DNA of 64,000 nt, taken from contig JAUJOW010000002.1 of assembly GCA_030447445.1 (NCBI GenBank), positions 130,208 through 194,207 of the forward strand, read 5' to 3'. The position numbers and the translations under genes were made by a program. Below the pieces are notes generated by a model. It was given only the letters and a program-made list of their open reading frames with translations. It was not told the origin of the DNA and made no database searches. This document shows, in pieces, positions 4,779 to 61,475 of this stretch. Every line of letters begins with the position of its first letter. Within the stretch, counting starts at the first letter, position 1. Origin of the DNA: Acidimicrobiales bacterium. Lineage in GTDB: Bacteria > Actinomycetota > Acidimicrobiia > Acidimicrobiales > Iamiaceae.

Positions 4779-6380
4779 GTGGCCGAGGGGTGGCCGACGG
4801 AGACCGTCAGGAGTGACGGCGGCGTGGTGTGCAGCGTCGACCGTCTCGCCTCCGAAGCCGGAGTCGCAATGCTCCGGGCCGGTGGCAACGCCGTCGACGC
4901 CGCCGTGGCCGCCAGCGCCGTCCTCACCGTGACCACGCCCCACATGTGCGGCATGGGTGGCGACCTGTTCGCGCTGGTGCACGGCCCGGCCACCGCCGCC
5001 GCCGAACCCCTGGTGCTCAACGCCTCGGGCCGGGCCGGCAGCGGCGCCGATCCCGACCGTCTCAGGGCCGAAGGACACACCCGCATGCCCTTTCGGGGCG
5101 ACGTGCGCAGCGCCCCGGTGCCGGGGTGTGTCGACGGTTGGCTCGCTCTCCACGGCCGGCTCGGCCGGCTCGGCCTACCCGACGTGCTGGCTCCGGCGGT
5201 GTCCCTCGCCGAGGGAGGCTTCCCGGCCTCGCCACTCCTGGCCTTCATGCTGCCCGCCCTGGAAGGCGTCGATGGTTGCGACGAGCTGACCGGTCCCGAC
5301 GTCGACACCGGTGACCACCTACGCCGGCCGGGTGCGGCCCGGACGCTGCGAGCCATCGCCGCCGAGGGCCGTGACGGGTTCTACGGCGGTGAGTTCGGCG
5401 AACGGCTGGTCGAGGTGGGGGCCGGCGAGTACACCGCCGACGACCTGGCCCGGCCCGGTGCGGACTGGGTCGCCGGCCTGGCCCTCGACGTGTGGGGCCA
5501 CCGGGTGTGGACGGTGCCGCCCAACTCGCAGGGCTACCTGTCGCTGGCCGCCGCCTGGATCGCCGAACGGGTGGGTCTGGCCGTCGGGGGCGAGCTCGAC
5601 CCGGCCGACGACGCCTGGGCGCACTGCCTCGTCGAGGCGTCCCGGCTGGCGGCCTACGACCGGCCCCAGGTTCTGCACGAACACGCCGATGCGACCCGCC
5701 TGCTGGCCCCCGACCGGCTGGCCGAGCGAGCCGACCGCTTCGACCCCCAGCGAGCCGCCGCGCTCCCCGGCCCTTCCAGTGCGGGCGGCACCATCTACCT
5801 CTGCACCGCTGACGGTGACGGCCTGGCCGTCAGCCTCATCCAGTCGAACGCCTCGGGCTTCGGTTGCCACGTGGCCGTCCCAGGGACCGGGGTGCTGCTC
5901 CACAACCGGGGCGTCGGCTTCTCCCTGGAGGCGGGCCACCCGGCCGAGTACGGCCCGGGGCGACGGCCCCCGCACACGCTCTCCCCCGCGCTCGTCACCC
6001 GGGACGACGGCTCGCTGCGCACCGTGCTCGGCACGATGGGGGGCGACTCGCAGCCCCAGGTGGTGGTCCAGATGCTGGCCCGGCTGCTCGTCGCCGGCCA
6101 GGATCCCGGGGCGGTCATCGGCGGGCCCCGGTTCACGCTGGCCGCCGACGGCAGCACCGGCTTCGACCTGTGGGAACGGCCCGACCACCACGTCCGGATC
6201 GAGCACCACTCCCCCGCGGCCTGGCGGGAGGGCCTCGAACGCCGTGGGCACCGGGTCGAGGTGGCCGAGCCCGACGTGGCCGGCTTCGGCCACGCCCACC
6301 TCATCGACCTCGACCGCGAAGGCCACCCCGCCGGCGCCGCCGACCCCCGCGCCATGGTGGGCGCAGCGTTGGGGGTGTAG
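4779..6380 (+). CDS. ggt: gamma-glutamyltransferase family protein
   Basis: 533 aa; MLRAGGNAVDAAVAASAVLTVTTPHMCGMGGDLF; GGTIYLCTADGDGLAVSLIQSN (candidate nucleophile Thr); MGGDSQPQVVVQML. Confidence 0.88.
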   Translation: MAEGWPTETVRSDGGVVCSVDRLASEAGVAMLRAGGNAVDAAVAASAVLTVTTPHMCGMGGDLFALVHGPATAAAEPLVLNASGRAGSGADPDRLRAEGHTRMPFRGDVRSAPVPGCVDGWLALHGRLGRLGLPDVLAPAVSLAEGGFPASPLLAFMLPALEGVDGCDELTGPDVDTGDHLRRPGAARTLRAIAAEGRDGFYGGEFGERLVEVGAGEYTADDLARPGADWVAGLALDVWGHRVWTVPPNSQGYLSLAAAWIAERVGLAVGGELDPADDAWAHCLVEASRLAAYDRPQVLHEHADATRLLAPDRLAERADRFDPQRAAALPGPSSAGGTIYLCTADGDGLAVSLIQSNASGFGCHVAVPGTGVLLHNRGVGFSLEAGHPAEYGPGRRPPHTLSPALVTRDDGSLRTVLGTMGGDSQPQVVVQMLARLLVAGQDPGAVIGGPRFTLAADGSTGFDLWERPDHHVRIEHHSPAAWREGLERRGHRVEVAEPDVAGFGHAHLIDLDREGHPAGAADPRAMVGAALGV

Positions 6381-28215: not shown

Positions 28216-29508
28216 GTCCGCGGTCGCCGCCACCGCCGACAGCCGCCGCTCGCGGATGAGGGCATGTAGGCTGGCGCCGGCGGCCGAGGCGGCGATGGCC
28301 AGGAGCGGTACCGCCGGCACCTTGAACCGGGGGTCGCCGAAGAAGGCCAGGGGGACGGCCACGGTGGCGGCGGCGGCGAGCACGACCAGCAGGCGGTCGG
28401 GGCGGCGGCGGTCGACCAGCACCACCATGCCGGCCAAGCCGAGGGCGAGGACGGCGTAGTAGTACCCGTCGGCCAGCCTGGCGAGGAGATCCTCGGTCCG
28501 CTCGGAGATGAAGTCGTCCAGGTCGTAGGACTGCACCGCCCAGAGCCCGTCGTGATCGTCCCGGAACATGATCTTCGCCCGGCGCCACACCAGACCGACC
28601 TCGGCCGCCGGGTCATCGGCGATGTACTCCAGCGCTCGGTCGGTGAGCTCCCGGTCGTGGCGGATCTCGGCCGCCGCGCTGTCGGCTGTGCTCTCACCGG
28701 TGTCGCACGCCGACGTGAGGTCGAAGCCGCCTGTGGCCCCCGGGTGGTGGCCGATGCACAGGTTGTCACCGGTGTTGGTCGACAACAGCACGAAGCCGTC
28801 CATGCGAACGAGGTTGCGCACCGTCCAGGGCACGACGAAGAGGGCCACCACGGCCATGTAGATGGCGAGGCGGCGCACCACGACGCGCCAGTCCTGGCGC
28901 TCGACCGACCACACCACGGCCAGCACCGGGATCACGGCGAGGGAGATGGGCCGCACCATCACGGCGGCGGCGAACAGCGCCGCCGAGCCCACCAAACGAG
29001 GAACTGAGAGCTCTCGCCGCCAGACGAGGACGGCCAGGGCGCCCAGGAAGAGCGCGTTGAAGAGCGTCTCACTCAGCAGCGCGCCGGTGTGGAAGATCAG
29101 GTTGGGATACAGCGCGAGCACGAAGGCGGTGGCCACGGCCGCCGCCGTCCCGGCCAGCCGGCGGGCCACGACGGCGGCGAGACCCACGGTCGCCGCCCCG
29201 AGCAGGGCCTGGGCCAGCCCGGCAACGAGGGGCAGATCGTCGGGGAGGGGGGTATGGCGGGTCAGCCACTCGATGAACCCGAGGAAGAACGGGTAGCCCG
29301 GCGGGTAGTAGGCGGTGGGCTCACCGCTGGTGAACTGGACATAGCCGTCCCCCTCGGCGATCAGGTCGGCGTAGCCGGCGTAGCGGGAGGGATCGACCAG
29401 GCCGAGGGGCGGGCGGCTGGCGTAGAGCACCCACCCCACCCGCAACCCCAGCCCGAGGACGGCGGCGGCGAGCACCCACCGCCGGTGCCGGGCGGCGAGC
29501 GATGTCAT
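28207..29508 (-). CDS. GT39/ArnT-like membrane glycosyltransferase
   Basis: GVDPSRYAGYADLIAEGDGYVQFTSGEPTAYYPPGYPFFLGFIEWL; LALYPNLIFHTGALLSETLFNALFL. Confidence 0.87.
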   Translation of the reverse strand: MTSLAARHRRWVLAAAVLGLGLRVGWVLYASRPPLGLVDPSRYAGYADLIAEGDGYVQFTSGEPTAYYPPGYPFFLGFIEWLTRHTPLPDDLPLVAGLAQALLGAATVGLAAVVARRLAGTAAAVATAFVLALYPNLIFHTGALLSETLFNALFLGALAVLVWRRELSVPRLVGSAALFAAAVMVRPISLAVIPVLAVVWSVERQDWRVVVRRLAIYMAVVALFVVPWTVRNLVRMDGFVLLSTNTGDNLCIGHHPGATGGFDLTSACDTGESTADSAAAEIRHDRELTDRALEYIADDPAAEVGLVWRRAKIMFRDDHDGLWAVQSYDLDDFISERTEDLLARLADGYYYAVLALGLAGMVVLVDRRRPDRLLVVLAAAATVAVPLAFFGDPRFKVPAVPLLAIAASAAGASLHALIRERRLSAVAATADSA

Positions 29509-30227
29509 CAGCGGGCACGACGGAGCCGGTCCCGCGCCCCCCACAAGGTGACGAGGGCCATCGACTCGACCATGATCCGCACCGACATCTTGGACGTTCC
29601 TCGCACCCGGTCGGTGAAGGTGATCGGCACCTCGGCGGCGGTGGCGCCCCGCTGGGCCGTTCGGTGGGCCAGCTCCATCAGGAACCCGTAGCCGTTGGCC
29701 CGGGTGGTGCCGACCCGGATCTCCCGCAGCAGGTCGGCCCGGTAGGCCCGGAACCCGGCCGTGGCGTCCCGGACGTCGAGGCCGAGCAGGGCGACGGCGT
29801 AGCGGTTCCCGTAGCGAGACAGGGCCCGGCGCAGCGGTGGCCAGTGCGGGATCGACCCGCCCGGCACGTAGCGGGAGCCAATGGCGACGTCGGCCCCGTC
29901 GGCCAGCCGGGCCAGGAGCTCGGGCAGCACCGCCGGGTCGTGGGAGAAGTCGGCGTCCATCTGGACGAGGGCCTGGTAGCCCTCGTCCAACCCGTGGGAC
30001 AGACCGGCCCGGTAGGCGTTGCCCAGGCCGTCCTTGACCGGGCGGCGAAGCACCTTGACCTGGCCGGCGTCGGCGCCGACGGCCTCGGCCAGATCGGCGG
30101 TGCCGTCGGGGCTGTTGTCGTCCACCACGAGGATGTCCGCTGACGGGACGGTGTCGCGGACCTGCCTGAGGAGCGCTTCGATGTTGCCGGCCTCGTTGTA
30201 GGTGGGGACGACCACGAGGGTCCGCAT
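29508..30227 (-). CDS. polyprenol monophosphomannose synthase-like GT2 (Ppm1/DPM1 type)
   Basis: RTLVVVPTYNEAGNIEALLRQVRDTVPSADILVVDDNSPDGTADLA; LVQMDADFSHDPAVLPELL; GSRYVPGGSIPHWP. Confidence 0.93.
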   Translation of the reverse strand: MRTLVVVPTYNEAGNIEALLRQVRDTVPSADILVVDDNSPDGTADLAEAVGADAGQVKVLRRPVKDGLGNAYRAGLSHGLDEGYQALVQMDADFSHDPAVLPELLARLADGADVAIGSRYVPGGSIPHWPPLRRALSRYGNRYAVALLGLDVRDATAGFRAYRADLLREIRVGTTRANGYGFLMELAHRTAQRGATAAEVPITFTDRVRGTSKMSVRIMVESMALVTLWGARDRLRRAR

Positions 30228-37943: not shown

Positions 37944-38999
37944 ATGGCCCAGGCGGTGCGCACCGCCCCCGCTGCGGAGCCGGCGTCTCCCCGGGCCGGC
38001 GGTGAGGTCCACCTTCCCTACATGCCAGCGCTGGACGGTCTGCGGGGGCTGGCCGTGGCTGGTGCTGCTCTCCACGCTGGCCACCTCGTCGGCGGCTACG
38101 TCGGCGTCGATCTGTTCTTCGTCCTGTCCGGGTTCCTCATCACCTCACCGCCGGTGACCGAGGGCCGCACGGCGGGCGGCATCGACCTGGTCCGCTTCTG
38201 GGCTCGCCGAGCCCGGCGCCTGCTGCCCGCGCTGGCCGGGGTGATGGTGGCGGTGGTGGCCTACGCCTGGCTGCTGGCCGAACCGGTCGAGCTGGCCCGC
38301 ATCCGGGCCGGTGGCCTGGCCACCCTCGCCTACGTGGCCAACTGGCGAGCTGTCGTGGCCGAACAGGACTACTTCGACCTCTTCGTCTCACCGTCGCCGC
38401 TCCAGCTGCGCCCGGACCCTCCCATCGCCGTGTTCAACGCCGCTCCGCCGGGCTGCACGTTCCCGGGTGGGGCGACTCGGAGCCGCAGCAGCGACGGCAC
38501 CGTCCATGCCGACCCGCGCCTGGACTGCCAGGAGCGGTGGGAGCGCGACCTCGCTGCGTTCGACCCCCACCGTCGTCGTCCTCGCTCTTGGCGACCCCGG
38601 CGACGGTGAGCTCGAGTACCGAGGGAATGGCTCCACCCCTGCACGGAGGCCTACGACCAGTGGTACCGGCGAGGTTTGCAGCGGGCCATCGACGTGCTCG
38701 GAGCGGACGGCGCCACGGTGGCCATCGTGACGCCCGCCTATGCCCGCAGCTTCACCTCCGACCTCCACTATGAGCGCGCGGACTGCGTCAACGCCATCAA
38801 CCGCAGCGTCGCCGCTGAACGTCCCGAGGCCACCCTGGTCGATGTCGCCCGCCACGTCTGTCCCTCCACGCCGTCGAGCTGCCGAGACCGCATCGGCGAC
38901 GTCGAGTTGCGACCGGATGGGGTGCACTACCGCGACGAGGGGGCCCGTCTCGGGTCGGCTTGCATCCCCCGCGATTTCCGCTCGCAAGGCTCCGCCTAG
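37944..38999 (+). pseudogene. acyltransferase-3/SGNH protein with large internal deletion and frameshifts
   Basis: AT3 N-terminus ALDGLRGLAVAG...GYVGVDLFFVLSGFLIT...FWARRARRLLPAL...DYFDLFVSPSPLQ runs directly into SGNH-type C-terminal sequence VFNAAPPGCTFPGG...DCQERWERDLAAFDPTVVVLALGDPG...RAIDVLGADGATVAIVTPAYARSF...DVELRPDGVHYRDEGA. Confidence 0.8.
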
Positions 39000-39046
39000 G
39001 ATGCGGTGCCCTAGCCACAAGATCCCGGTTGGGTAGGGTGGCGGCG

Positions 39047-40975
39047 ATGCCCCCGCCCACGAACCTCTTGCGGCGCGGCGCGAGTGTGGACCTCGACGGT
39101 GGGGCCGCCGGCACCTCAGCGACACGGGCACCGGACGAAGCTCCGATCGAGCGGCGGGACCGCCGATGGCCCGACGCCGGAGCCGTCGTCGTGCTCGTGC
39201 TCCTCGGGCTGCTGGCCATCCCGCTGATCGTGGCGCTGGTGGCCCTCCGCCACCCCAGGTGGTACCCGCTCAGCGACATCGCCCAGACCGAGCTTCGAGT
39301 GCGCGACGTCTGGAGCTCCCACCCGCCCCTCATCGGCCTCGGGGGGCGGATCGGCGCTGTCGGAGCCGACCAGGGCAGCCACCCTGGCCCGCTGAGCTTC
39401 TGGGCCCTCTGGCCGCTCTACCAGGTCTTCGGAGGCGGCGCCTGGGCCCTCAAGGCGGCGACGGCAGCGTTGAACGTGATGGCCATGGGCTCGGTCCTGT
39501 GGCTGGCGCTTCGACGGGGCGGGGTCGCGCTCGCCCTCGGCGTCGGCGCCGCCACCGCCGTGCTCACCCACTCCTTCGGCGCCGCCGCGTTGACCGAGCC
39601 CTGGCTCCCCTACCTCTCGATGGTGTGGTGGGTCGTCTTCCTCCTGGCGGTGTGGTCGTTGCTCTGCGAGGACATGTCCGTGCTGCCACTGGCCGTCTTC
39701 GCCGGCTCGCTCTGCGTGCAGACACACATCTCCTATGTCGCCCTGGTGGTCGGGTTGGGAGCGCTGGGGCTCGCCGCCGTGCTTCGCAGCCTGCTCGCTC
39801 AACGGCGGGACCCCGATCTTCGGCGCCGCACGATCCGGTGGTCCCTCATCGGCGTCGGGACGGGCGTGGTGCTCTGGCTCCCGCCGATCATCGAACAGGT
39901 CACCAACCGCCCGGGCAACCTCGCCACGATCTACCACCACTTCAGCGACCCGCCCGAGGACCACCTCGGCGTCGCCAAAGGCATCGAGCACTTGCTGATC
40001 CACCTCAACCCGTGGACGCTCCTCACCGAAGAGGTGGCGGCGAACCGGTTCATCGTCGGCTCGACCGTTCCCGGCATGGTGCTCCTCGCCGCCTGGGCCG
40101 TCTCGGTGGTCGTCGCCTGGCGGCTGCGGCACCGAGCACTGGTGCGCCTCCACGGCCTGGCGGCGGCGGCTCTCGCGCTGGCCGTCGTCTCGATGAGCCG
40201 GATCTTCGGACCGGCGTGGTACTACCTGACGCTCTGGGGCTGGGGGATCAGCGCCCTGATCATGGTGGCCGTCGGCTGGACCCTGTGTACGACCGTCGAA
40301 CGGACGGTGGACGGTCCCCGCCACCAGCGGTTGGCCGTCACCGGGGCGGTGGGCATGCTCGGCGTCGTCGTCCTGTCCACCCTCTCGTTCTCCCTGGACG
40401 CCGCCCACGCCGAGGTGAGCCAGCCGGAGCTCTCGGCCACCATGGACGTGCTCGTACCCCAGACCCTCGACGGGCTCGACGATCCCGCCACGCCCGGCGG
40501 CGGTCGCCGTCCCTACCTCCTCACCTGGGCGGACCCAGCCTTCGGCGGGGCCCGGGGGTTCGGCCTGTTCAACGAGCTGGACCGCCACGGGATCGAGGTC
40601 GGCGCGGTGGAGTACTGGCAGGCGGTGGTGACCCGTGCTCGGGTGATCGAGCCGGAGGAGGCGACGGCGGAGGTGCACCTTTCCGTCGGCGCTGACATCG
40701 CAGCCTGGCAGGCCAAGCCGGGCACCCGTCGCGTGGCCTACGTCGATCCGGCCAGCCCGGAGGAACGGGCCGAGTACGAGCGGCTCCGCCTCCTGGTGAT
40801 CGACGAGCTCTTGTCGGAGGGGCGGCCTGAACTGGTGCGCAGCGTCGACCAGAACCCGTTCGTCCTCCAGTCGGACATGACCCTCTCCCGGACGTTGCGC
40901 GACCGGGTGCGCCGCATGATCTCCTTCGGCCAGCCGGCGGCCGTGTTCGTCGCGCCGGTCGATCTCGCCGGTTGA
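39047..40975 (+). CDS. polytopic membrane protein, GT-C-like (family B)
   Basis: ALRHPRWYPLSDIAQTELRVRDVWSSHPPLIGLGGRIG...QGSHPGPLSFWALWPLYQVFGG; multiple TMs. Confidence 0.82.
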   Translation: MPPPTNLLRRGASVDLDGGAAGTSATRAPDEAPIERRDRRWPDAGAVVVLVLLGLLAIPLIVALVALRHPRWYPLSDIAQTELRVRDVWSSHPPLIGLGGRIGAVGADQGSHPGPLSFWALWPLYQVFGGGAWALKAATAALNVMAMGSVLWLALRRGGVALALGVGAATAVLTHSFGAAALTEPWLPYLSMVWWVVFLLAVWSLLCEDMSVLPLAVFAGSLCVQTHISYVALVVGLGALGLAAVLRSLLAQRRDPDLRRRTIRWSLIGVGTGVVLWLPPIIEQVTNRPGNLATIYHHFSDPPEDHLGVAKGIEHLLIHLNPWTLLTEEVAANRFIVGSTVPGMVLLAAWAVSVVVAWRLRHRALVRLHGLAAAALALAVVSMSRIFGPAWYYLTLWGWGISALIMVAVGWTLCTTVERTVDGPRHQRLAVTGAVGMLGVVVLSTLSFSLDAAHAEVSQPELSATMDVLVPQTLDGLDDPATPGGGRRPYLLTWADPAFGGARGFGLFNELDRHGIEVGAVEYWQAVVTRARVIEPEEATAEVHLSVGADIAAWQAKPGTRRVAYVDPASPEERAEYERLRLLVIDELLSEGRPELVRSVDQNPFVLQSDMTLSRTLRDRVRRMISFGQPAAVFVAPVDLAG

Positions 40976-48347: not shown

Positions 48348-50687
48348 ATGGCCCAGACGACGGACGAGCTGACGACGGACGCCACAGGAGCGGCGGCCAT
48401 CGCGTCGAGGCCATCTGAGAACGACGCCCCTCCGTCGCCTCCGGAGCCGGGCAAACGACGGAGCCACAACCTCGAGATCCCGCTGATCAGCTTCGCCGCC
48501 CTGCTGCTCGAGATCAGCTGGACTCGGGTCTCGTTCAAGCTCTTCTACTACTGCACCTATCTCGTCATCGGCCTGGCCCTGCTCGGGATCGGCTGCGGGG
48601 CGGGTGCTCGTGGCCTTGTCGGGCCGCCTGCGGCGGGCCACCACCGACTCGATCCTCGTCTGGGGTTCGCTCTGGGGCGGGCTCAGCCTCGGGCGCGGCT
48701 ACCTGCTGATCGCCCGCATCGACATCGCCTCGCTCGAGATCTGGACTACGGCACGTCCCGCTCCATCACCAGCCTCGCCCTGCTGCTGGCGATCTGCCTG
48801 ATCCTGTTCGCCTCCTTCGTGGCCGTGGGCGTCATGATCGCCACCCTCTTCTCCCGTGAGGGCGACCGCATCGGCCGCCTCTACTTCGCCGACCTCCTCG
48901 GGGCTGGCCTGGCCTGCGCCGTGGTCGTGTCCCTGCTCTCGTTCATCGGCCCGGTGGCCACGATCATGCTCGCCGGCGTCATGCTCTCCCTCACCGGCGT
49001 GGGCGTCGCCCTGCGGGGAGGACGGCGAGCCCGCGCTCGGGCGGTGCCCGCCGGCCTCGTCCTCGCCGTCCTCCTGGGCGTCGCCGTCGTAGCCCCCGAC
49101 GCCGTCCTCCCCCCGCCAACGAGCAGACTCGGTCAAGGAGGAGTTGACCGACGAGAACTCGATCTACTCGTCGTGGAGCCCCATCTTCCGGGTCGACGTT
49201 CGCGACCGAGGCGCCTCCCGCGTCCTCTTCCACGACGGCCTGCACGGGTCGAGCATCTACCAGTTCGACGATGACGTCTCGAGCCTGAGCCGCTTCGATA
49301 CCGACCCTCGATCGCTGCCCTTCGCCGTGGTCGGCGCGAACCCGGAGAACGTGATGATCATCGGTGCGGCGGGGGGACACGAGACCTCTCGTCGCTCTAC
49401 TACGACGCCGGCCACATCGATGCCATCTCGCTCAACCCCGTCACCCACGACCTGGTCGTGTATCGAATGGCCGACTACGCCGGTCGCATCGCCGACCGCC
49501 CCGAGGTGAACTACGTCCACGGCGACGGCCGGTCCTTCCTGGCCCGCAGCAACGACAGCCACGACATCGTCTGGTACCCGCCCCGACAGCTACTCAGCGC
49601 GAACGCGACCACGGCAGGGGCCTTCGTCCTGTCCGAGAGCTACCTCTACACCAGCGAGACGATCAAGGAGAGCCTCGAGCACCTGGGGCCCGACGGCATC
49701 GTGGCCGCGCAGTTCGGCGAGGTGAACTTCGAGGCCAAGCCGAACCGCACCACCCGCTACGTGAGCACGGTTCGGGATGCGCTGGCCGACGTCGGCGTCG
49801 ACGACCCTTCGCGCCACCTGCTCGTGGCCACGTCCTCCACCGACGTCGGCGCGTCGGTGGTGTCCACCATCCTGGTCAAGCGCTCACCGTTCACCGACGA
49901 CGGACCCTTCTTCTGGCACTTCAGCGAGCTGAAGGATGTCATCGGCAACTTCGGTGACCCCATCGACCGCTTCGATCACGAGGATGCCACCGGCGAGCGG
50001 GTGCTGCTCCTCCTGCTCGGCGTGGCCACTCTCTTTGCCGCCGTCTTCCTCCTGTTGCCCTTCCTCACCATCCGCAAGACGTGGGCGGCGCTTCCCCGCA
50101 AGCCCCGCTCGGCGCTGTACTTCGCGTCGCTCGGCCTGGGCTTCATGTTCTTCGAGATCACGCTGATCCAGCGACTCACGTTGTTCCTCGGGTACCCGAC
50201 CTACTCGTTGACCGTGACGTTGGCCTCGCTGCTCGTCTTCACCGGCGTGGGCGCCCTCCTCTCCGAGCGCTGGAATGCCCACCCCCGACGGGTCGTGCCG
50301 GTGATGCTCGGCGTCGTCGCCGCCCTCACCGCCTTCTACCTGTTCGGCCTGCCCGTCCTCACCGACGCCCTGCTGGTATGGCCGCTCATCCCCCGGGTGC
50401 TGGTGGCCTTCCTCGTGCTGGCGCCGCTCGGCATCTGCCTGGGCACGTTCATGCCCCTCGGCCTGGGGGCGGTGGCCAGGCTGACCGAGCACTCCCGGGA
50501 GTACGTGGCCTGGGGGTGGGCCGTGAACGGCTTCGCCTCGGTGATCGGAGCTGTTCTGACCACCATCCTGGCCATGACCTTCGGCTTCGCGGTGGTGCTG
50601 GTCTTCGCCCTCGCCGTCTACTGCGTCGCCCTGCTCGTGCTGCCGGGACTCCTGCGAGCGGCGCCGATGGCGGCCACCGACTCGTAG
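48348..50687 (+). CDS. multi-TM protein with spermidine-synthase-like domain (SpdSyn-2), split by about four apparent frameshifts
   Basis: Collinear pieces: ISFAALLLEISWTRVSFKLFYYCTYLVIGLALLGIGCG / VLVALSGRLRRATTDSILVWGS / DYGTSRSITSLALLLA...GRLYFADLLGAGLA / DENSIYSSWSPIFRVDVRDRG...NVMIIGAAGGHE / ISLNPVTHDLVVYRMADYAG...FFEITLIQRLTLFLGYPTYSLTV. Confidence 0.75.
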
Positions 50688-50826: not shown

Positions 50827-52863
50827 TCAGGCGCTGGCCGGCACCGGCGAGCCGGTGAGGTGGCGGCGGCCGAGCACGAACGCCAACCCGTACAGGACGG
50901 CCACGAGCACCAGCAACATCCGGTAGCCGACGACAAGCGCGCCGTACTCGAGGAGCCCACCGACCATCGCGCCGAGCAGGTTGGCGCCGAAGGCCGACGC
51001 CGAGGAGCCGACGTCCTTGAACCGCTGCGTGAACACCAGGTTGGCCAGGAAGATCGGCGTGAAGGCGAGGACCACGGCGGCGACGAAGCGGAGCCCGATG
51101 GGAAGGGAGAGCAGGCGCTCGGAGGGCACGGCGAAGGACACGACCAGTGCGGCCAGCAGCACGAGGTAGAGGCGGGCCGGGCGCTTGAAGGACAGCCGGC
51201 GCGAGACCTCGACTGCCGCGAGGACGCTCAGGAGGACACCGGCGAACACGAGCGCGTTCACCACCCAGGTGGTGCCGAAGAGCAGGGCGAACTGCACGAC
51301 GTTCTTCGTCTCCAACAGCAAGAAGGCCGCCCCCATGAAGAAGAGGTCGGCGTAGGAGGCCATCTGGCCCAACGGCCCCGACGCCGCCCGCACGGCGACG
51401 ATCGAGACGAGCAGGATCAGGGCGATGGTGACGAGATAGAAGACCGGGAGGGTCCGCTCCCGGAGGTAGGGGAAGGGGTGGTCGTCGGTGGCCGGTTCGG
51501 GCGCCGATTCAACCGACGCCGGCGAGGCCGTCGCGCACCGCACCGAGCCGGGATCCTCGCTGGCGAAGAGGAACGACAGGCGGCCGAGACCCTCGGAGGC
51601 GTCAACGCACGGTGGACGGTCGTAGACCTCCTCGAGGGTCCCGGCCAGCCGGTCGATGAGCCACTGCTCGACGTAGTAGTTGTACATGGCGAAGACGCCG
51701 TCGGGACCTAGGTGGTCGCGGGCGGACTCCATCGCCTCCTGGGTGAACAGGTAACTCTCCAGGCGGAGCGAGGACTGCCCGGAGACGAGGGTTATGGAGT
51801 CGGGCAGGGCGAAGAGGATCAGGTCGTAGCGCTCGTCGGAGCGTTCGAGGAAGGCTCGACCGTCGTCGATGTGGACGTCGACGCGAGGATCGGCGTAGGG
51901 CTTGTCGGGGTGGAGCTCGGTACCGAGCTCGTGGAGGCGAGGATCGATCTCCACGGCGTCGACGTGGCCGGCGCCCTGCTCGAGCGCGGTGGCGACGTCG
52001 TTGCCGGTGCCCGCCCCCACGATCAACACGTTGTCGAGGCTGGCCGGCCGGGCCGACTGGTACACCCGCGAATAGAGCGAGTTCTCGTCGGTCTCGAAGA
52101 TGGCCTGGTGGGGCACCCCGTTGACCCGCACGAACGGGGCCGGCTCTTCGTCCACGGTGACCTTGTAGTACGGGGACCAGCTCGCCCCGGCGGCGAAGGT
52201 CTCGAGCCCGAGCATGACGAGGAGGGCGGCCAGGGCACCGACCTGCAGCACGGTGATGCGGGGGCGGTGGGCGACGAGGAGCACGAGCCCGGCGACGATG
52301 CCCCATGCCAGCGGTGGGGCCCGCAGGAACGACAGCGCCGTGAACCCGACGATCCCGGCGATGCTGCCCACGATGTCGAGCCGGTAGGCCTCGAGCGGCT
52401 CGAACTGGACGAAGGCGCGGGCGACGCCCTCGGCGATGAAGGCCAGCGTCGCTGCCACCACCACGAAGATCACGGCCAGGACCAGCTCGCGGGGCGGGCC
52501 GCTCGTCTCGAGCGTGCCGAAGAAGATCAGGTCGCTGCCGGCCCCTTCGATCTCGACCGGGAAGAAGCGTACGAAGGCCACGAGGACGGCCAACGCCGGG
52601 AGCGAGTACGGGAACAGGTCCCGCTCCCGGTGGGCCCGGAGGAAGCCGATGCCGATGCCCAGGAAGCTCCCGAGCAGGACGAAGTTCGAGAAGTACGAGA
52701 GGTGCAGGACGTTGGAGCCGGTCCAGCGGATCAACGCCAGCTCGACGAACAGCATCACGAAGCTCAACAGGACGAGGCGGACACCGGGACGCAACCCGGT
52801 TCGCGGCATGGTGTCGGTGATGGCCAGCGCTCTCGTCTCCTGCTCGCCCCTGGAGCCGGTCAC
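50827..52863 (-). CDS. multi-TM protein with spermidine-synthase-like domain (SpdSyn-3), intact
   Basis: 678 aa; TDENSLYSRVYQSARPASLDNVLIVGAGTGNDVATALEQGAGHVDAVEIDPRLHELG...DPRVDVHIDDGRAFLERSDERYDLILFALPDS. Confidence 0.87.
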   Translation of the reverse strand: MTGSRGEQETRALAITDTMPRTGLRPGVRLVLLSFVMLFVELALIRWTGSNVLHLSYFSNFVLLGSFLGIGIGFLRAHRERDLFPYSLPALAVLVAFVRFFPVEIEGAGSDLIFFGTLETSGPPRELVLAVIFVVVAATLAFIAEGVARAFVQFEPLEAYRLDIVGSIAGIVGFTALSFLRAPPLAWGIVAGLVLLVAHRPRITVLQVGALAALLVMLGLETFAAGASWSPYYKVTVDEEPAPFVRVNGVPHQAIFETDENSLYSRVYQSARPASLDNVLIVGAGTGNDVATALEQGAGHVDAVEIDPRLHELGTELHPDKPYADPRVDVHIDDGRAFLERSDERYDLILFALPDSITLVSGQSSLRLESYLFTQEAMESARDHLGPDGVFAMYNYYVEQWLIDRLAGTLEEVYDRPPCVDASEGLGRLSFLFASEDPGSVRCATASPASVESAPEPATDDHPFPYLRERTLPVFYLVTIALILLVSIVAVRAASGPLGQMASYADLFFMGAAFLLLETKNVVQFALLFGTTWVVNALVFAGVLLSVLAAVEVSRRLSFKRPARLYLVLLAALVVSFAVPSERLLSLPIGLRFVAAVVLAFTPIFLANLVFTQRFKDVGSSASAFGANLLGAMVGGLLEYGALVVGYRMLLVLVAVLYGLAFVLGRRHLTGSPVPASA

Positions 52864-53307
52864 AGGGTACGCGCACCGTAGCCTTCAGCCGGTGACTGCC
52901 GTCTCAGCGCGCTCCGCAGCAGTCCTGAGCGGGCCTCCGGCGACGGAACCTCGAACGAGCTTCAGGGCGGACCGGCGGCGGTTCTTGGCAGGCTGTCTGG
53001 CCGGAGCGCTGCTCGCTGCCGTCCCGTTCGTCTGGATGCTGAACGTCGGCCGGCTCGACCTCACGCAGCGTCACCCTCTCGGAGGGTTCTACGACGCCCA
53101 GGCCCAAAGCCTGCTCGATCTGCGCTGGGACGTGCCCGAGGGGGCGTTGGGGACCGAGGCCTTCATGGTCGACGGCAAGTCCTACCAGTACCAGGGCCCG
53201 GTCCCCGCCCTCCTCCGTCTACCGGTCGTCGCCCTCACCGACCGCTACGACGGTCGCCTCACCCAGCTCTCCATGCTGGGGGCCTTCGCCGCCACCATGT
53301 TCTTCGC
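52791..53307. repeat. 517-bp segmental duplication, copy A (copy B 55562-56078)
   Basis: Same length in both copies, about 90% identical where compared by eye; spans the 5' end of a SpdSyn-3-type gene, the intergenic region and the 5' part of GT family D. Confidence 0.88.
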
Positions 53308-53479
53308 AACATCCGGGAGCCGACGACGAGCGCGCCGTACCCGAGGAGCACACCGGACCATCGCGCCAAGCAGGTGGAATGGTGGTCCCGGTCTTGCGGG
53401 AGCTGAGGTGGTGGCAGCGGTCAAGAGTTCAGCAGAGCTCGGTGGCGGCGTCCTCAGGCTCGGCGGGGATACGCAGTGA
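52892..53479 (+). pseudogene. truncated copy of the GT-C-like family D gene
   Basis: Matches the N-terminus of 55663-57726 (VTAVSARS...GGFYDAQAQSLLDLRWDVPEGALGTEAFMVDGKSYQYQGPVPALLRLPVVALTDRYDGRLTQLSMLGAF) until about 53307, then unrelated sequence. Confidence 0.9.
53306..53378 (-). pseudogene. 3'-terminal remnant of a second SpdSyn-3-type gene
   Basis: gcaacatccgggagccgacgacgagcgcgccgtacccgagg... aligns to gcaacatccggtagccgacgacaagcgcgccgtactcgagg... at 50913, with about five substitutions and one indel. Confidence 0.85.
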
Positions 53480-55171
53480 GGTATTGGAAGGGGCGTCGAC
53501 GAAGTTCTCGAGGAAGCGGCCCACGGTCAGCGGCTCGGTGTACGAGGCGCGGAACTGCCTGAGCCGAGGGCACTCGAGGACCAAGCGGGCCACGGCCACC
53601 CGCATGTCGAACGGAGCGCGGTCGGGATCATCGAGCGGCGTCGTGTACACCAGCGGGAAGGGGAAGTCGTCCTCGTCGAGGTCGGCGCCGGGCTGTGTGC
53701 CGGTTGCGACGATCCACGGCGGTGGGAGTGGCTTCTCATGCCCGGGCACAGCGCGCCGAGTGAGCCCGAGGTGGGCGGCGAGCGGGTTGCCGAGGCCGAG
53801 CACGTCGAGCATGAAGACGTCCGTCCCGAGGGCATAGCCGGAAACGCCGACGCCGTAGGCCGCGTGCAGGGTGCGCTGACCGGCGATGGGCTCCGCTGGC
53901 AGGCGAACCCCGTGGTAGAAGAAGCCGCCTTCGGCGGTGGCGGCCACCCGTCCGGGTTGCGAAGACGTCCACCCGTAGTCCGCGACGGTCACGGGATTCC
54001 TCCTGGCCAGGATCGTGTCGTCCACATGCGTGCGAAGGAACAGGCCGCAGACGACAGCCCAGGGCACCACGAGGAAGGCGAGGGCGTACTGCCGGCGCAG
54101 CGGGACCACCGCGACGGGGGCGCCCAAGGCGAACAGGTACGGAAGCAAGAGCCTGGCCTGGATCCAGTCGCCGCCGACCTTGATGACGTAGAGGGAGCCG
54201 ACGAAGGCGGCGCCGACGAAGGCGAGCACTACGGCGAGCCCCCGCCGGTCATCGCGACGACCCAGGTGGCGCAGCAATGGTGGGTAGGCACCGACGGTCA
54301 GCGCACCGAGCGGCAGCCAAAGAGCATACGGATCAGTGAAGTCCCGCAAGTACTGCCAGCCGGTGGACCACCGCGAGAGACCGGCCTCCTTGGCGACGGC
54401 CGTGTTCGGCACGAGGACGCCGTAGTACCCCATGCGGAAGACCTGGTATGCGAACGGGAGGACCAAGACGCAGGCGACCAGCCGGAGGCGGTCCGACCAT
54501 CGGTCCTGGCGCCAGCCGGCGACGAGCACGGCGAAAGCGAAGGCCGCAGTGAACAGGCCGAGCTCCGGCCGGATGAGCGGCCCGACGCCGACCAGCAGAG
54601 CGCCGGGGATCCCGAGTCGCCGCCCGGACCGGGACCACCGGGCGAGGATGAGCAGACAGGCGCCCAGCCAGGCCAGGACCAGCCCGCCCTCGAGCCCGGA
54701 GGAAGCGTAGATCCACGCAGGCGTCACAGCGACGTAGGCCGCCATCCCTAAGGGCAGACGGATATCATCATCGGTGCCTCGTGGGAGGAGGGCCGTCGCG
54801 CCCGCCATCGCCAGGGCTACGGCAGTGATCGTGAGGCCGATCCCCAAGAGAACGGCGATCCACTCGAGCCGGAAGGGCGAGATGACGTCGGCGACGGCGA
54901 GGAGGAGCACCCAGAGCGGGCTGGTGGAGGCCTCAACCCGTTCCCCGGCGTTGAACACTGGTCCGTTTCCAGCGAGGAGCTGATTGACCACCCGCAGGTG
55001 GATGAACCCGTCGTCCGCCACCCACCGGAACGCCCAAGCCCGCTCTGCCATGACAAACAAGGGAATGGCCAAGAGAAGCCAGCGCAGGAGCGCTCCCCTT
55101 GAGGTGCGTACGGGTGCCGGTTCGCTGGCGGAGGGAGCCCCAAACCTTGTCGTCGTGAGGCCGTCCGCCAC
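53429..55171 (-). CDS. aftB: AftB-like (GT89) terminal arabinofuranosyltransferase homolog
   Basis: RWVADDGFIHLRVVNQLLAGNGPVFNAGERVEASTSPLW; SSGLEGGLVLAWLG; LPFAYQVFRMGYYGVLVPNTAVAKEAG; DVFMLDVLGLGNPLAAHL...PGHEKPLPPPWIVA match the mycobacterial AftB pattern as recalled. Confidence 0.82.
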   Translation of the reverse strand: MADGLTTTRFGAPSASEPAPVRTSRGALLRWLLLAIPLFVMAERAWAFRWVADDGFIHLRVVNQLLAGNGPVFNAGERVEASTSPLWVLLLAVADVISPFRLEWIAVLLGIGLTITAVALAMAGATALLPRGTDDDIRLPLGMAAYVAVTPAWIYASSGLEGGLVLAWLGACLLILARWSRSGRRLGIPGALLVGVGPLIRPELGLFTAAFAFAVLVAGWRQDRWSDRLRLVACVLVLPFAYQVFRMGYYGVLVPNTAVAKEAGLSRWSTGWQYLRDFTDPYALWLPLGALTVGAYPPLLRHLGRRDDRRGLAVVLAFVGAAFVGSLYVIKVGGDWIQARLLLPYLFALGAPVAVVPLRRQYALAFLVVPWAVVCGLFLRTHVDDTILARRNPVTVADYGWTSSQPGRVAATAEGGFFYHGVRLPAEPIAGQRTLHAAYGVGVSGYALGTDVFMLDVLGLGNPLAAHLGLTRRAVPGHEKPLPPPWIVATGTQPGADLDEDDFPFPLVYTTPLDDPDRAPFDMRVAVARLVLECPRLRQFRASYTEPLTVGRFLENFVDAPSNTSLRIPAEPEDAATELC

Positions 55172-55529
55172 GGCGACAATGTACCTCCAGGAGCGAGGTG
55201 GTCAGGCCGTGCCCGCCACGGCCAACGCCTCAAGGGAGGCTGCTTGATTGATGCAGGCAAGGGAGTCAGAGACCAGTGCGCTCCCGCGATGGCCCGCAGA
55301 TTGCTGGCGGCGCGAGCGGTCCGGCACCGTCGGTGACTGAGCCTGGCCAGCTCCGATCGAGTTGGGCGGTGCCGGCCTCGGACTGCCGGCGCCGGCCGAG
55401 CCGGTTGGCGCAGCGGATCTAGATGTAGTGCCCACGTTCAAGGGGTCGTCTGTGGTGCACGACCCCATCGGCGTCTCCGCGGACAGCGGCCGGCGTCGGT
55501 GTCCGCCCAGCTTGCCCCACCGCCGCAGC

Positions 55530-55639
55530 ACGAAGGCGACGAGGACGGCCAACGCCGGGGCGCAACCCGGCTCGCGGCATGGTGTCGGTGATGGCCAGCG
55601 CTCTCGTCTCCTGCTCGCCCCTCAAGCCGTTCAGAGGGT
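55530..55639 (-). pseudogene. 5'-terminal remnant of a second SpdSyn-3-type gene, with internal deletion
   Basis: 30 bp matching 52571-52600, then directly sequence matching 52789 onward; 188 bp missing at a shared CCGGG. Confidence 0.85.
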
Positions 55640-56078
55640 ACGCGCACGGTAGCCTTCGGCTGGTGACTGCCGTTTCAGCGCGCTCTGAAGCGGTCCGGAT
55701 CGAGCCTCGGGCGGCGGGACCTCGAGCGAGCCTCCGGGCGGATCGCCGCCGGTTCTTCGGAGGCTGCCTGGCGGGAGCGCTGCTCGCTGCGGCCCCGTTC
55801 ATCTGGATGCTGAACACCGGCCGGCTCGACTTCACGCAGCGTCACCCTCTCGGGGGGTTCTACGACGCCCAGGCCGAGAGTCTGCTCGATCTGCGCTGGG
55901 ACGTGCCCGCAGGGGCGTTGGGGATCGAAGCCTTCCTGGTCGACGGCAAGGCCTACCAGTACCAGGGCCCGGTCCCCGCCCTCCTACGCCTGCCGATCGT
56001 CGCTCTCACCGACCGCTACGACGGTCGCCTCACCCAGCTCTCCATGCTCGGTGCCTTCGGGGTGACCATGCTCTTCGC
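55562..56078. repeat. 517-bp segmental duplication, copy B (copy A 52791-53307)
   Basis: See copy A. Confidence 0.88.
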
Positions 56079-57726
56079 CTCGCGACTGAGCTGGCAGATC
56101 CGCCGGCTGTTCGGTCCCGACGGGACCGTCACCCGAGGCGAGGCGATCGCCGCCGGCGGGTTCATCCTGTCCCTCGGCGCCGGTTCCAGTCTGATGTTCC
56201 TCGCCGGCCAGGCGTACGTCTACCACGAGGCGATCCTCTGGGGGGTCGCCTTCGCCCTGGCCGCCTACGACGCCTTGGTTCGTCATCTGTCCGACGGCTC
56301 CTCTCGGGCCCTCGTGTTGACCGGTGCGTTCGCATCCCTGGCTCTCTTGACCAGAGCGTCGGTTGGTCTCGGACCGGTCCTGGCCCTCGGCTCGGTCGTG
56401 GGGCTGCGGGCGACGAGGGCCTTGTGGACGAAGCGTCGGCCGGAGTGGCGCAGGCTTCTCGGGCTGTTCGCGGCCTGCGTGGTGCCCGTCCTGTTCTATG
56501 CCTCCGTGAACCAGGCCAAGTTCGGGACGTTCTTCAGCGTCCCCATCTCCGCCCAGGTCGCCTCAGAGGTCGACCCGACCCGAGCCGAGTTCATACGGGA
56601 GAACGGCGACAGCTTCTTCGGTCTCCAGTACGTGCCGACCGCCGTCCTCCAGTACCTGCGACCGGACGCCCTCGAGCTCGAGCGCCAGTTCCCCTTCGTC
56701 GACTTCCCGGCGCTGGCCGAGAGCATCGGGGAGGTGCGCTTCGACCGGATCGACCGCGCGTCGAGCGTGCCCGCCACCATGGGCTGGATGGTGGTCCTCG
56801 GCGCGATCGGTGTGGTTGCTGTGGCGGGGCGCCGTACGCGCGGGAGCCGAGCGGCGGCCGCCGCCTTGGGGCCGCCCGTGCTCGGAGCGCTACTGGCGTT
56901 GGGGGTCACGGTCACGATCGGATACGTCGCTCAGCGCTACCTGGCCGACTTCATCCCCCTGCTCGTGCTGGTGAGCCTGGTCGGTCTCCACCATCTGTCA
57001 GCCAGGATGCGCGAGGGCGCCGCCTGGCCCAGGACGATGGCGGTCGCGCTCGGCCTCGGTGCTCTCGCCGCGTGCTACGTCAACTTCTCCCTCGCGCTGT
57101 TCTACGAGCGGCAGTACGGGTTCGTTCCCGAGGCCGTCAGGGCGGAGCTGATCTCCTGGCAGCTCGACGTCGACGCCGTGCTGCCAGGCGACCAATCTCC
57201 TCGGCTGCGATCCACCAGAGCGGTCGGTGCGTTGCCTCGTTCGGCCGATGAGGGAGAGCTGGTGGTGGTGGGTGAGTGCGCGGGGCTGTACCAGTTCGAC
57301 GGTGAGCTCTGGCGGCCGGTGGAGCGCACCAACGCCATCGGCCGGTTCAGGTTCGAGCTCCGGCTGGCCGACGCTGCGCCGAACGCCCGCTACGAGCTGG
57401 TCGGGCGGGGTTCTGGCGATGACCGGCGATCCCTGGTGCTCGAGCGCAGATCGAACGAGCGAGTGGCCTTCGTCTTCAGGTCGCCGGGCTCGCCTGCTGT
57501 GGCCGGCCCGGCTCACGAGATCAACCCCGACGTGCCGTTCGTGTTCGACGTGGTGATGGACCGGCGGCTCAACAGCTTGCAGGTGGTGGCCGACGGCCGG
57601 TCGCTGCTCGGGAGGCTCTACGCCGCTCCCGACGACCGCCTTCGGGTGGGCACCGACCTCCCGGGCGAGCTCGTCGAGCAGCCCCTCGAGGCGCCGGTCT
57701 GTCAGGAGCTGGTCAAGCGGCGGTGA
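55663..57726 (+). CDS. polytopic membrane protein, GT-C-like (family D), with soluble C-terminal domain
   Basis: 687 aa from GTG 55663; GGFYDAQAESLLDLRWDVPAGALGIEAFLVDGKAYQYQGPVPALLRLP; TM-rich middle; soluble tail ELVVVGECAGLYQFDGELW.... Confidence 0.82.
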   Translation: MTAVSARSEAVRIEPRAAGPRASLRADRRRFFGGCLAGALLAAAPFIWMLNTGRLDFTQRHPLGGFYDAQAESLLDLRWDVPAGALGIEAFLVDGKAYQYQGPVPALLRLPIVALTDRYDGRLTQLSMLGAFGVTMLFASRLSWQIRRLFGPDGTVTRGEAIAAGGFILSLGAGSSLMFLAGQAYVYHEAILWGVAFALAAYDALVRHLSDGSSRALVLTGAFASLALLTRASVGLGPVLALGSVVGLRATRALWTKRRPEWRRLLGLFAACVVPVLFYASVNQAKFGTFFSVPISAQVASEVDPTRAEFIRENGDSFFGLQYVPTAVLQYLRPDALELERQFPFVDFPALAESIGEVRFDRIDRASSVPATMGWMVVLGAIGVVAVAGRRTRGSRAAAAALGPPVLGALLALGVTVTIGYVAQRYLADFIPLLVLVSLVGLHHLSARMREGAAWPRTMAVALGLGALAACYVNFSLALFYERQYGFVPEAVRAELISWQLDVDAVLPGDQSPRLRSTRAVGALPRSADEGELVVVGECAGLYQFDGELWRPVERTNAIGRFRFELRLADAAPNARYELVGRGSGDDRRSLVLERRSNERVAFVFRSPGSPAVAGPAHEINPDVPFVFDVVMDRRLNSLQVVADGRSLLGRLYAAPDDRLRVGTDLPGELVEQPLEAPVCQELVKRR

Positions 57727-57744
57727 TGCTCCGGCTCACGACGC

Positions 57745-59184
57745 TCATGCCGGGGTGAGCTCGTAGAGGAACTGATAGCCGAACAGGGTCGGCCGGAGCG
57801 TGACCGTGGCCCGATCCACCACTCCGACGGCTCTGCGGAGCCCGCTGTCACCGGAGTGCTCCTTGTCGGCACCGCGGTCGACGATCTCGAGCGGGAGGCC
57901 CGTCGCTTCACGGCGTCGGACCTTCCAGCCGTGGACGCTGATCAGGTTCTCGAAGCTGCGGCGGGTGAAGAAGCGCACGTGGTCGTGATCGAGGATCCCT
58001 CGTCGGTCGTAGTCGAATCGACCGAGCGCCACCCGCGTGCGGGGGTACCAATGCCCGAAGTTCGGGATGCTGAGCACGAAGACCCCTCCGGGGGCGAGGA
58101 CGTCGCGCACCTGGTCGAGGATCCTCTCGGGTCGGCGAACGTGCTCGAGCACGTCAGCGGCCAGGACCACATCGAACTCACCGGCCACCTCCACGGGCAG
58201 GCCGGCGTCGAGGTCGGCGGCCACGAAGCGATCCACTCGCTCCTTGACGCCCTCCCGAGGCTCGAGGTCCACCCCTGTCACCTCGTGGCCCCGATGGCGC
58301 AGCTGCTCGTCGATGGAGCCATCGGCGCACCCCAGGTCGAGGACCCGGCCAGGGGGCCGCTGGGACAGCCATCCCAGCACGAGCTGGTGCGAGGAGTCGG
58401 CCGCCTCCTTCATCTCGTAGCCGGCGCTGGCAAAGGCGAGCTCCCCGGTGCCGAAGCCCATCTTGTGGGCCCGATAGCGCAGCACAACGCCAGTGATGTC
58501 CTTGGCGTACTTCAGGCCGTTGACGTAGCAGACCTCGTCGCCGTAGTAGGTCGGGATGGGGACCTCCACGATGCGCTTGCCCGCTTCGAGGAGTTGGACG
58601 ATCACCTGGGTGTCGAAGTCGAAGCCATCGCTGTTGCGTTCGAACGGGATGGAGCGCAGCGCGTCGACCGAGTACGCCCGGTAGCCGGAGTGCCACTCCG
58701 AGAGCGTCGCCCCTGCGATCGTGTTCTCGAGCCGGGTGAGGATGCGGTTGCCGAGCCACTTGTACAGGGGCATGCCCCCGGCCCGAGCGGTCCCGGGGTC
58801 GAGCATGCGGGACCCGAACACGGCGTCGGCTTCCCCCCGTTCGAGCGGGCCGACCATCTCGGGGAGGAGCTCGGGGGCGTACTGGCCGTCGCCGTGGAGC
58901 AGCACCACGATGTCGATGTCGTTCTCGATGGCCCAGCGGTAACCGGCCTTCTGGTTGCCTCCGTAGCCCAGGTTGCGCGGGTGGCGGATCACCTCCAAGG
59001 GCAGGTCATCGGTGATCTGCTGGTAACCGAGTCCGACGAGATAGGTCGCATCGGAGGAGTGGTCATCACCCACCAGGATCTTCGTGATACGAGACCGGAA
59101 GCCGTCGGGGATACGGTCGAGCACCTGGGAGAGCGCGGACGCCGCGTTGTAGGCTACGACCAGGACGCCAATGCGCGTTGGCAT
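57745..59184 (-). CDS. GT2 glycosyltransferase fused to C-terminal SAM methyltransferase
   Basis: GT2: RIGVLVVAYNAASALSQVLDRIPDGF...LLHGDGQYAPELLPEMV; methyltransferase: GRVLDLGCADGSIDEQLRHRGHEVTGVDLEP...VVLAADVLEHVRRPERILDQVRDVLAPGGVFVLSIPNFGHW. Confidence 0.93.
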   Translation of the reverse strand: MPTRIGVLVVAYNAASALSQVLDRIPDGFRSRITKILVGDDHSSDATYLVGLGYQQITDDLPLEVIRHPRNLGYGGNQKAGYRWAIENDIDIVVLLHGDGQYAPELLPEMVGPLERGEADAVFGSRMLDPGTARAGGMPLYKWLGNRILTRLENTIAGATLSEWHSGYRAYSVDALRSIPFERNSDGFDFDTQVIVQLLEAGKRIVEVPIPTYYGDEVCYVNGLKYAKDITGVVLRYRAHKMGFGTGELAFASAGYEMKEAADSSHQLVLGWLSQRPPGRVLDLGCADGSIDEQLRHRGHEVTGVDLEPREGVKERVDRFVAADLDAGLPVEVAGEFDVVLAADVLEHVRRPERILDQVRDVLAPGGVFVLSIPNFGHWYPRTRVALGRFDYDRRGILDHDHVRFFTRRSFENLISVHGWKVRRREATGLPLEIVDRGADKEHSGDSGLRRAVGVVDRATVTLRPTLFGYQFLYELTPA

Positions 59185-59193
59185 CCCGCGATT

Positions 59194-61475
59194 TTAGCTG
59201 TTGGTCACCTCCAGGCTGACGTGCAGCGGCTCGTTCCCACGAGGCGAGAACCACCCATAGCCAACCTGCATCATGTCGATTGCGTAGTCGTACCTTCCCG
59301 GCCGAAGCGGCTGTCCCTCCTCGTCGACAGCCCGCAACCTGATGGTGACGTGGAACTCCTCTCCGGGATAGGTCCACGAGGGGAGCTCGACGTGGGCGCT
59401 GGCGGGAACCGCGCCAGAGGAGCCATCGATCTCCGGGCGAGCCCCGACGCGAACCCGGCCCGGCTCGTCGAAGCTCTTCGCGTCCGGCCACGGCGAGCCC
59501 GTGCCGCTGTGACGGCCCCGTAGCCCCAACCGAAGGTCCGCGCCGGCCCGAGCTCTGAGGTGGCCGGTCGGGTACCCCGCGTCGAGCCAGAGCTCGGCTC
59601 GTCGTGCTTCTTGGGGCAGGCTCGTCGGGAACCCGGCCGGCAGGAGCTTGCCCTCCCGCTCCAGTCTGGCTTGGTCGGCTCCAGGTAGGACCCACAGGCC
59701 GAGCGCAAAGGAACCGAAGGGCGAACCCTCCGGCTTGTCGATGAGCGCGATGCGACCACCCCGCTCGCGCAGCTCCCTGGAGCCCAGCGCGTGGAACACG
59801 AATGCTTCGGGGGGATGGTCATCCACCGAGGGCCAGGGTTCGACGTGCAGCTCTGGCAGGTAGAAGAGGTAGTGGGGGGGCGGGCCTGCCCTCGGGTCGG
59901 TGCTCAGCGCTGCTCGCTCGACCCCCAGCTCCTCCACCTGATCCGGGAGCCGCCAGCTCTCGAAGTACTCGTCGGCTGCCACCTGGGTCACCCCGCCGAC
60001 GGCGAGCCAGAGCGAAAGAGGAAGGAGCAGCAACCGCGGAGCTCGCTTGTTCAGACAAGAGACGGCGAGCAGCGCCTGTGCCCCGAGGGCCACCCCAGTC
60101 GCCGTCACCACCAGGTGACCCTGGTCCCGGAAACGGGCGACGTCGGGCACGCCGAACGGCGTGTAAAAGAGGTCGAGGTCGCCTGGCTTGTGCCCGGCCA
60201 GCAGGCCAAGGGCGAGGCCCCCGGTGACCAGCATGACGGCCCAGCTGCTCGTCACCAACCGACTGGTGCGCGTTTCCGCAAACAGGAAAGCGACTCCGGC
60301 CGCGACCCACAGCGGCACGAATGCCTCGTTGTACCGGCCGAAGATGAACCCATCTGAAGGAAAGCGGTTGAGGCTGAAGTACAGCGATGACGTCATGAAG
60401 ATCACGAGCCCGCTTCCCAACAAGAACACCGTCGTCAGGCGTGGTGGCGTGGCCAGGAGCGGCGAGAGCCTCGGCCACCGAGGCGATGGATCCTGGATGG
60501 GAGAGGGCTGGCCCCAGCGTCCTGGTCCGAGCTGGGTGGCGAGGAGCCCCAGACCGAGGGCGGCGATGCCCAGGGTTCCGACGGCGATGTACCAGGCGTG
60601 GCCGACCATCTCGATGACGAGCCGGTAGAAGTCGGTCGGGTTCACGAAGAACTTGCGGTACTCCGGGATGCGGTCCGTCTGGTTGGTCGACAGCTCTCCT
60701 CCAGCCCAGAGCGTGGAAATGAGCCTCGATCGGAGGAGCCGAGTGGCGATCAACAACTCCACGGTGAGGGCGATGCTGCAGGCGGCGAGGCGAGTGCCGA
60801 CCAGGCCCACGACGGCGGCGACAGCCATGATCGCCAGCGCCCACAGCACCACGAACGTGAACCGTTCGTGCGTGGCGAACAGCAAGGCGATCGATGGACC
60901 GAACAGCAGGCGCTGCCAGGACGGACGCGGCGTCAGGTACAGCCAGCAGGCCAGCACGGAGGCCGCCGACAACGGCAGGATGAGGTTCTCGGCAAGGGCG
61001 AGGGAGGTGTCGTAGAAGGTGGCGGGAACTCCCGCGCCGACCACGGCGGCGGCCATCGCCGTAGGCCGTCCGGTGTCGAGGATACGTCTGCAATAGAGGT
61101 AGAGGAGGGGCACCAACGTCGCCATGAGGAGGGCGTTCACGACGAGGACCGCTCGTGTGAGCAGTTCGGGATCGTCGAACAGCCAGAAGGCGGAACGAGG
61201 AACAAGGAGTAGCCGAAGCCGTAGTAGGCAAGCTCAGGCAGCAGGTGATCATGAGGATCGCCACTCAGCCAGCGAGCGTTGGCCAGATAGCCGAACTGGT
61301 CGGCCGGACTCCGTGCCAGGAACGTAATCTCGCTGGTCACCCACACGTGGAGGCCCGCTAGGGCGACGGTCATGACGAGCAGGATCGGGGCGGGGTTGCC
61401 GGCGAGGAACGCGCCGAAGCGAGAGCCGAGAGGTGAGCTGCCGCCACCCCGGGGTGGGCCGCCCGCCGCACTCAT
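59194..61475 (-). CDS. polytopic membrane protein, GT-C-like (family E), one apparent frameshift near 61187-61192
   Basis: N-terminal piece ...FLARSPADQFGYLANARWLSGDPHDHLLPELAYYGFGYSLFLVP joins (FWLFDDPELLTRAVLVV)NALLMATLVPLLYLYCRRIL...; C-terminal beta-rich tail. Confidence 0.78.

Follow-up and report, generated by a model that had tools for sequence, protein, structure and literature searches.

The surface-sugar locus analysed here carries a 2.39-kb partial tandem duplication next to a full-length glycosyltransferase gene, and the arrangement of its remnants would be the scar left by an exchange of the gene that stands divergently on its 5' side, in an envelope-glycan locus. The reading that we somewhat prefer is that the array is a hybrid between two allelic versions of the locus, in which either of two genes could stand beside the glycosyltransferase gene, and not the result of an invasion by a foreign gene. 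The window, that is, the whole stretch of 64,000 nucleotides that was analysed, belongs to a metagenome-derived Acidimicrobiales genome of 3.07 Mb in 37 contigs that is 86% complete. We use as working labels S for a gene resembling spermidine synthase genes (SpdSyn-like), GT-D for a gene whose product has a GT-C fold, GT-D' for its truncated copy, and A and B for the two copies of a repeat. S (50827..52863, minus strand) is intact and encodes a membrane protein with a spermidine-synthase-like domain (Pfam Spermine_synth, E=6e-9); its likely start is the ATG at 52809, and homologues in five genomes of the family align from residue 19-27 on. Left of S, at 48423-49901, lies another SpdSyn-like gene, a relative of L058 1-1971, which is frame-broken and shortened and is either a pseudogene or affected by sequencing errors. 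GT-D (55663..57726, plus strand) is full length; its reading frame is open from the ATG at 55579, and the conserved start is probably the GTG at 55663. Between S and GT-D lies an intact gene for an AftB-like GT-C glycosyltransferase (53429..55171, minus strand), and the convergent 3' neighbour of GT-D is a GT2-methyltransferase fusion identified by Pfam (57745..59184, minus strand), after which a 648-aa gene on the minus strand comes next in the gene order of the 50-61 kb region.

A block of about 0.5 kb at ~52784-53306 (copy A, plus strand), containing the start of S, the intergenic region and the first ~166 codons of GT-D, recurs at 55555-56077 (copy B, plus strand) without gaps and with ~90% identity. 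A blastn comparison of 52752-53307 with 55525-56078 gave 87.8% identity over 556 bp (E=0); the alignment is ungapped from 52784 onward, and 445 of the 496 bases in 52784-53279 are identical. The 517-bp repeat without length change (52791-53307 and 55562-56078) reported in a preliminary description of this DNA is thus borne out, as is its statement that GT-D is cut at about 53307 and followed by a match to the 3' end of S: positions 53306-53375 match 50913-50981, in the 3' part of S, with 91% identity over 70 bp (E=7e-22, blastn). At 53306/53307, GT-D breaks off at codon ~166 and the sequence resumes as that from 50913 onward, with ~2 bp (GC) common to the two parental sequences; the first unit thus ends where the next one begins, in the same orientation and with nothing between them, as a tandem duplication demands. 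This join is the seam of a partial tandem duplication of 2.39 kb (50913-53306), comprising S and the first 166 codons of GT-D in head-to-tail order, and the tandem duplication of S (minus strand) and GT-D (plus strand) proposed earlier is supported by it. In the left unit, S is intact. Since the segment 50913-53306 is followed at the join by its own left end, GT-D in this unit was probably truncated at birth rather than cut afterwards.

The second unit is colinear with the first as regards both ends of S and the start of GT-D, and the middle of S has been replaced. The 3' end of the second S is a relic at 53306..53378 (minus strand). Its 5' end is a scrap at 55530..55577 (minus strand), in which 30 bp of the interior of S (55530-55559 versus 52571-52600, 29/30 identical, E=9e-8, blastn) continue directly into the initial ~20 bp of S. 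About 188 bp (52601-52788) are missing inside the scrap, with CCGGG microhomology at the join; the lost segment lay between short CCGGG-type repeats, so deletion has been reducing the second S in size. The preliminary description had placed the 5' end of the second S at 55530-55639; a 5' scrap is indeed present, but it is not continuous S, and beyond ~55579 the sequence common to both copies is the S/GT-D intergenic region. As had been claimed, the two short matches (of 73 and 30 bp in that description) are above chance: the ungapped score of the seam match is 37, versus a best of 12 among 60 shuffles, and that of the 5' scrap is 27, versus 16 in shuffles. A search of the whole genome (37 contigs) gave no further matches beyond those of the block, the seam and the 5' scrap. 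The AftB-like gene and a unique spacer of ~350 bp (55172..55529) lie between the two S scraps, which, like the seam, keep their original order and orientation, in agreement with the earlier placement of this gene. Only chance-level matches to the spacer were found in the window region, its own genome, the loci of relatives and 100 relatives, and neither the spacer nor the region left of the AftB-like gene gave a significant match to any further part of S. The joins that can be read show 2-8 bp of microhomology only, and no insertion sequence was recognised. It should be noted that the genome is metagenome-derived, and its 37 contigs and 86% completeness would leave room for an assembly chimera. 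Given the ~10-12% difference between the copies and their distinct surroundings, repeat mis-assembly is unlikely, and the scraps follow the original gene order, which a random join would not give; we therefore consider a chimera very improbable.

GT-D' (52892..53479, plus strand) resembles GT-D by tblastn in residues 1-167 only, up to ~53307, and its translation continues to a stop at 53477-53479. With the GT-D orthologue of the relative L021 (72% identical to GT-D) as outgroup, the changes on branch A are spread over codon positions 1, 2 and 3 as 5/10/8, which is as expected if A is unconstrained, and those on branch B as 5/2/12; the second-position excess on A has a permutation p of 0.02 in a small sample of 42 changes. 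Within the limits of that sample, copy A looks like a neutral, unconstrained relic and B like a working gene. The possibility that copy A encodes a functional mini-protein was rejected, as the copy breaks off inside the second membrane helix and has accumulated changes that look free of constraint.

The closest relative at the locus is L021 (JAUJNP010000004.1), an Acidimicrobiales metagenome assembly from another genus of the same family. In L021, AftB (minus strand), GT-D (plus strand) and the following genes form a single conserved block of ~7.5 kb without S, which matches 53429-55178 (77% nucleotide identity) and 55678-61394 (80%) and sits at a different place in the locus than in the window genome. 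The homology between the two AftB/GT-D intergenic regions is weak at best (p ~0.04) and was not used. The S homologue of the L021 genome is ~160 kb away from this block, and in three further genomes (G003, G010 and G013) S adjoins a GT2 gene (the homologue of 29508-30227) or other genes of the locus, not GT-D. Among the genomes compared, S adjoins GT-D only in that of the window. Among 24 genomes of the family, the AftB/GT-D pair was otherwise present only in L021 (G008), and the same relative was the sole other genome with the pair in a scan of 85,000 genomes. In G352, an AftB-like gene and GT-D are divergent with another gene between them, and this genome is too distant for polarising the event. 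Because the pairing is common to both genomes, AftB/GT-D probably predates their split, which would make AftB/GT-D the older arrangement of the lineage and S the newcomer, with the polarity taken from one relative.

This bears directly on the history proposed in the preliminary description, in which an ancestral S/GT-D pair was duplicated in tandem and an incoming AftB gene was then inserted into the second S. Such a history accounts for the local sequence in the fewest steps, as the ends of S flank AftB. However, AftB already adjoins GT-D in L021, in a block without S, and this pair probably formed before the A/B duplication, so that AftB would have had to leave and then return to the same spot in the same orientation. 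Judged on this one relative, the view of AftB as the newcomer that replaced the middle of S is not supported, and we regard it as unlikely.

The relative ages are suggested by divergence at 4-fold sites, which is 0.16 (15/92) between A and B, versus 0.35 for GT-D, 0.46 for AftB and 0.36 and 0.40 for neighbouring genes between the window and L021. Because 0.16 is well under 0.35-0.46, the A/B duplication appears to be much younger than the split of the two genomes, roughly 40% as old. A different order of events would be that the whole array is older than the split, that L021 lost S and kept a fragment of GT-D', and that gene conversion in the window genome later evened out the differences between A and B. 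This would explain the adjacency of AftB and GT-D once, and L021 does contain a GT-D relic of 140 bp (6186-6326, residues 51-95); it occupies the matching side of AftB, has the same orientation and is separated from AftB by another gene. That gene (L021:6338-8152) encodes a 604-aa membrane protein and is an inverted paralogue of window 38960-40975. Speaking against so old an array is the 3' tail of S: it is not part of the A/B repeat, yet it differs from S at only 5 of 69 positions (~7%), fewer than would be expected of a relic of such age that had been free of selection. In addition, the L021 relic and copy A have no junction in common. In the region of overlap with the L021 relic, sites favour the grouping of A with B by 5:1:1, and the relic would most simply be independent of copy A. 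We consider this order of events somewhat less likely still than an inserted AftB. It may also be envisaged that AftB and GT-D stayed put, that an S/GT-D' fragment was inserted to their left, and that the 5' end of GT-D in copy B and the S scrap were copied from A by one-sided repair. Although this would fit the gene order of L021 and the high A/B identity, it does not by itself explain the 3' tail of S left of AftB, and the B-L021 divergence shows no step at the edge of the repeat (~19% inside, 21% overall); we hold it to be improbable.

The AftB/GT-D pairing is probably the older one, yet the S scraps require that AftB came to lie within a copy of S, and for this reason we favour, by a modest degree, a hybrid of two alleles. 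We infer that S-type and AftB-type versions of the locus were joined within a population by unequal or illegitimate recombination, the S/GT-D arrangement having arisen later than AftB/GT-D. GT-D' would have been left behind as a decaying relic, and AftB and the intact GT-D would constitute the working pair. A point against a two-allele hybrid is that the position of AftB inside the frame of S would by itself suggest that AftB came after S.

Both members of the pair presumably move sugars from polyprenyl-phosphate donors to a surface glycan, as judged from fold and homology. The AftB-like protein matches the solved mycobacterial AftB (PDB 9dlf), a terminal beta-(1->2)-arabinofuranosyltransferase, with E=3e-63 and keeps the equivalents of D62, R221 and R372, the catalytic Asp and the substrate-binding Arg residues needed for AftB activity (PMC12041299). 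The homology covers the GT-C core and part of the C-terminal domain, whereas the protein is shorter (580 aa versus 669 aa). Its NF041481 match (E=8e-78) scores 262 bits versus an equivalog cut-off of 1050 bits. By sequence we thus predict an AftB-like GT-C enzyme; because its score is under the NCBIfam equivalog cut-off, the arabinan substrate is putative. Transfer of arabinofuranose from a polyprenyl-phosphate donor is likewise a prediction. GT-D has no Pfam match. Its AlphaFold model (pLDDT 88.5) has a GT-C fold, closest to AftA and PglB, and places it as a predicted member in the GT-C superfamily. Like AftA, PglB and ArnT (PMT being another GT-C enzyme), it would combine this fold with a soluble C-terminal domain, but it differs in its low TM-scores (0.24-0.39), in having no Pfam match and in that its C-terminal domain is galectin-like. 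Of the acidic residues in the first outer loop, E89 is invariant and D68 nearly invariant in 27 relatives. As to S, the likeness to SpeE, a polyamine aminopropyltransferase, is confined to a Rossmann part at residues ~273-442, whereas S is much longer, hydrophobic and far under the SpeE cut-offs. The name spermidine synthase is not warranted for S, which scores 43 versus 260 bits for the curated SpeE equivalog and reads ALPDS where SpeE has D-x-x-D-P.

The GT-D family (window 55579-57726) is scattered over the order, with relatives in 39 of 397 genomes (E<=1e-20). The GT2-methyltransferase gene is the immediate 3' neighbour in about a third of the GT-D loci (~12 of ~36), and the recognisable 5' neighbours differ: AftB in L021, a GT2 gene in G094, G186, G232 and G395, a 61529-like gene in G081 and G152, and another GT-D in G248. 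These counts are indicative, being based on 1.5-kb flanks and on genes resembling those of the window, and they support the suggestion of the preliminary description that partners beside GT-D are swapped in a modular manner. A third N-terminal GT-D fragment is present in G033 (residues 27-163); a possible fourth relic in G234 was discarded as it corresponds to a contig end. It is conceivable, if rather doubtful, that exchanges have recurred throughout the order at the divergent 5' side of GT-D, where the partner has been replaced repeatedly while the GT2-methyltransferase side was kept, and that copy A, L021 6186-6326 and the G033 fragment (27-163) are scars of such exchanges. Separately, ~6 kb beyond the end of the window, the window genome contains a degenerate third copy of GT-D (G000:C33:200185-201330, in L048), with residues 106-473 in two frames, which again faces a copy of the GT2-methyltransferase gene. 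The same region past the window end has a 3.3-kb direct duplication with 94.5% identity (G000:C33:196284-199580 and 208670-212011), each copy of which encodes the same 645-aa protein (100% identity); the GT2-like genes flanking it are duplicated in inverted orientation (85%).

Comparable events are known from the galactose-initiated O-antigen clusters of Salmonella, in which wzy remnants shrink by serial deletion, wzy is partially duplicated, clusters are recombinant hybrids, and different genes occupy one position in different groups (PMC3715488). Remnants, partial duplication, hybrid clusters and allele exchange would all have their likeness at the window locus. The two systems differ in that many Salmonella serogroups have been sequenced and their junctions carry insertion sequences or H-repeats, whereas the window locus has one close relative for comparison and 2-8 bp of microhomology. 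By analogy, the window locus can be regarded as a well-preserved case of a known kind, that of gene remnants and allele swaps, in a poorly studied lineage. Such remnants and swaps are well documented in O-antigen loci, and the general understanding of them is unchanged. What the locus provides is a legible fossil of the exchange of glycosyltransferase partners at a surface-sugar locus of an uncultured actinobacterial lineage, with a dated order of events, and it draws attention to GT-D as a GT-C family that lacks a Pfam match, as well as to AftB-like enzymes of the Acidimicrobiales.
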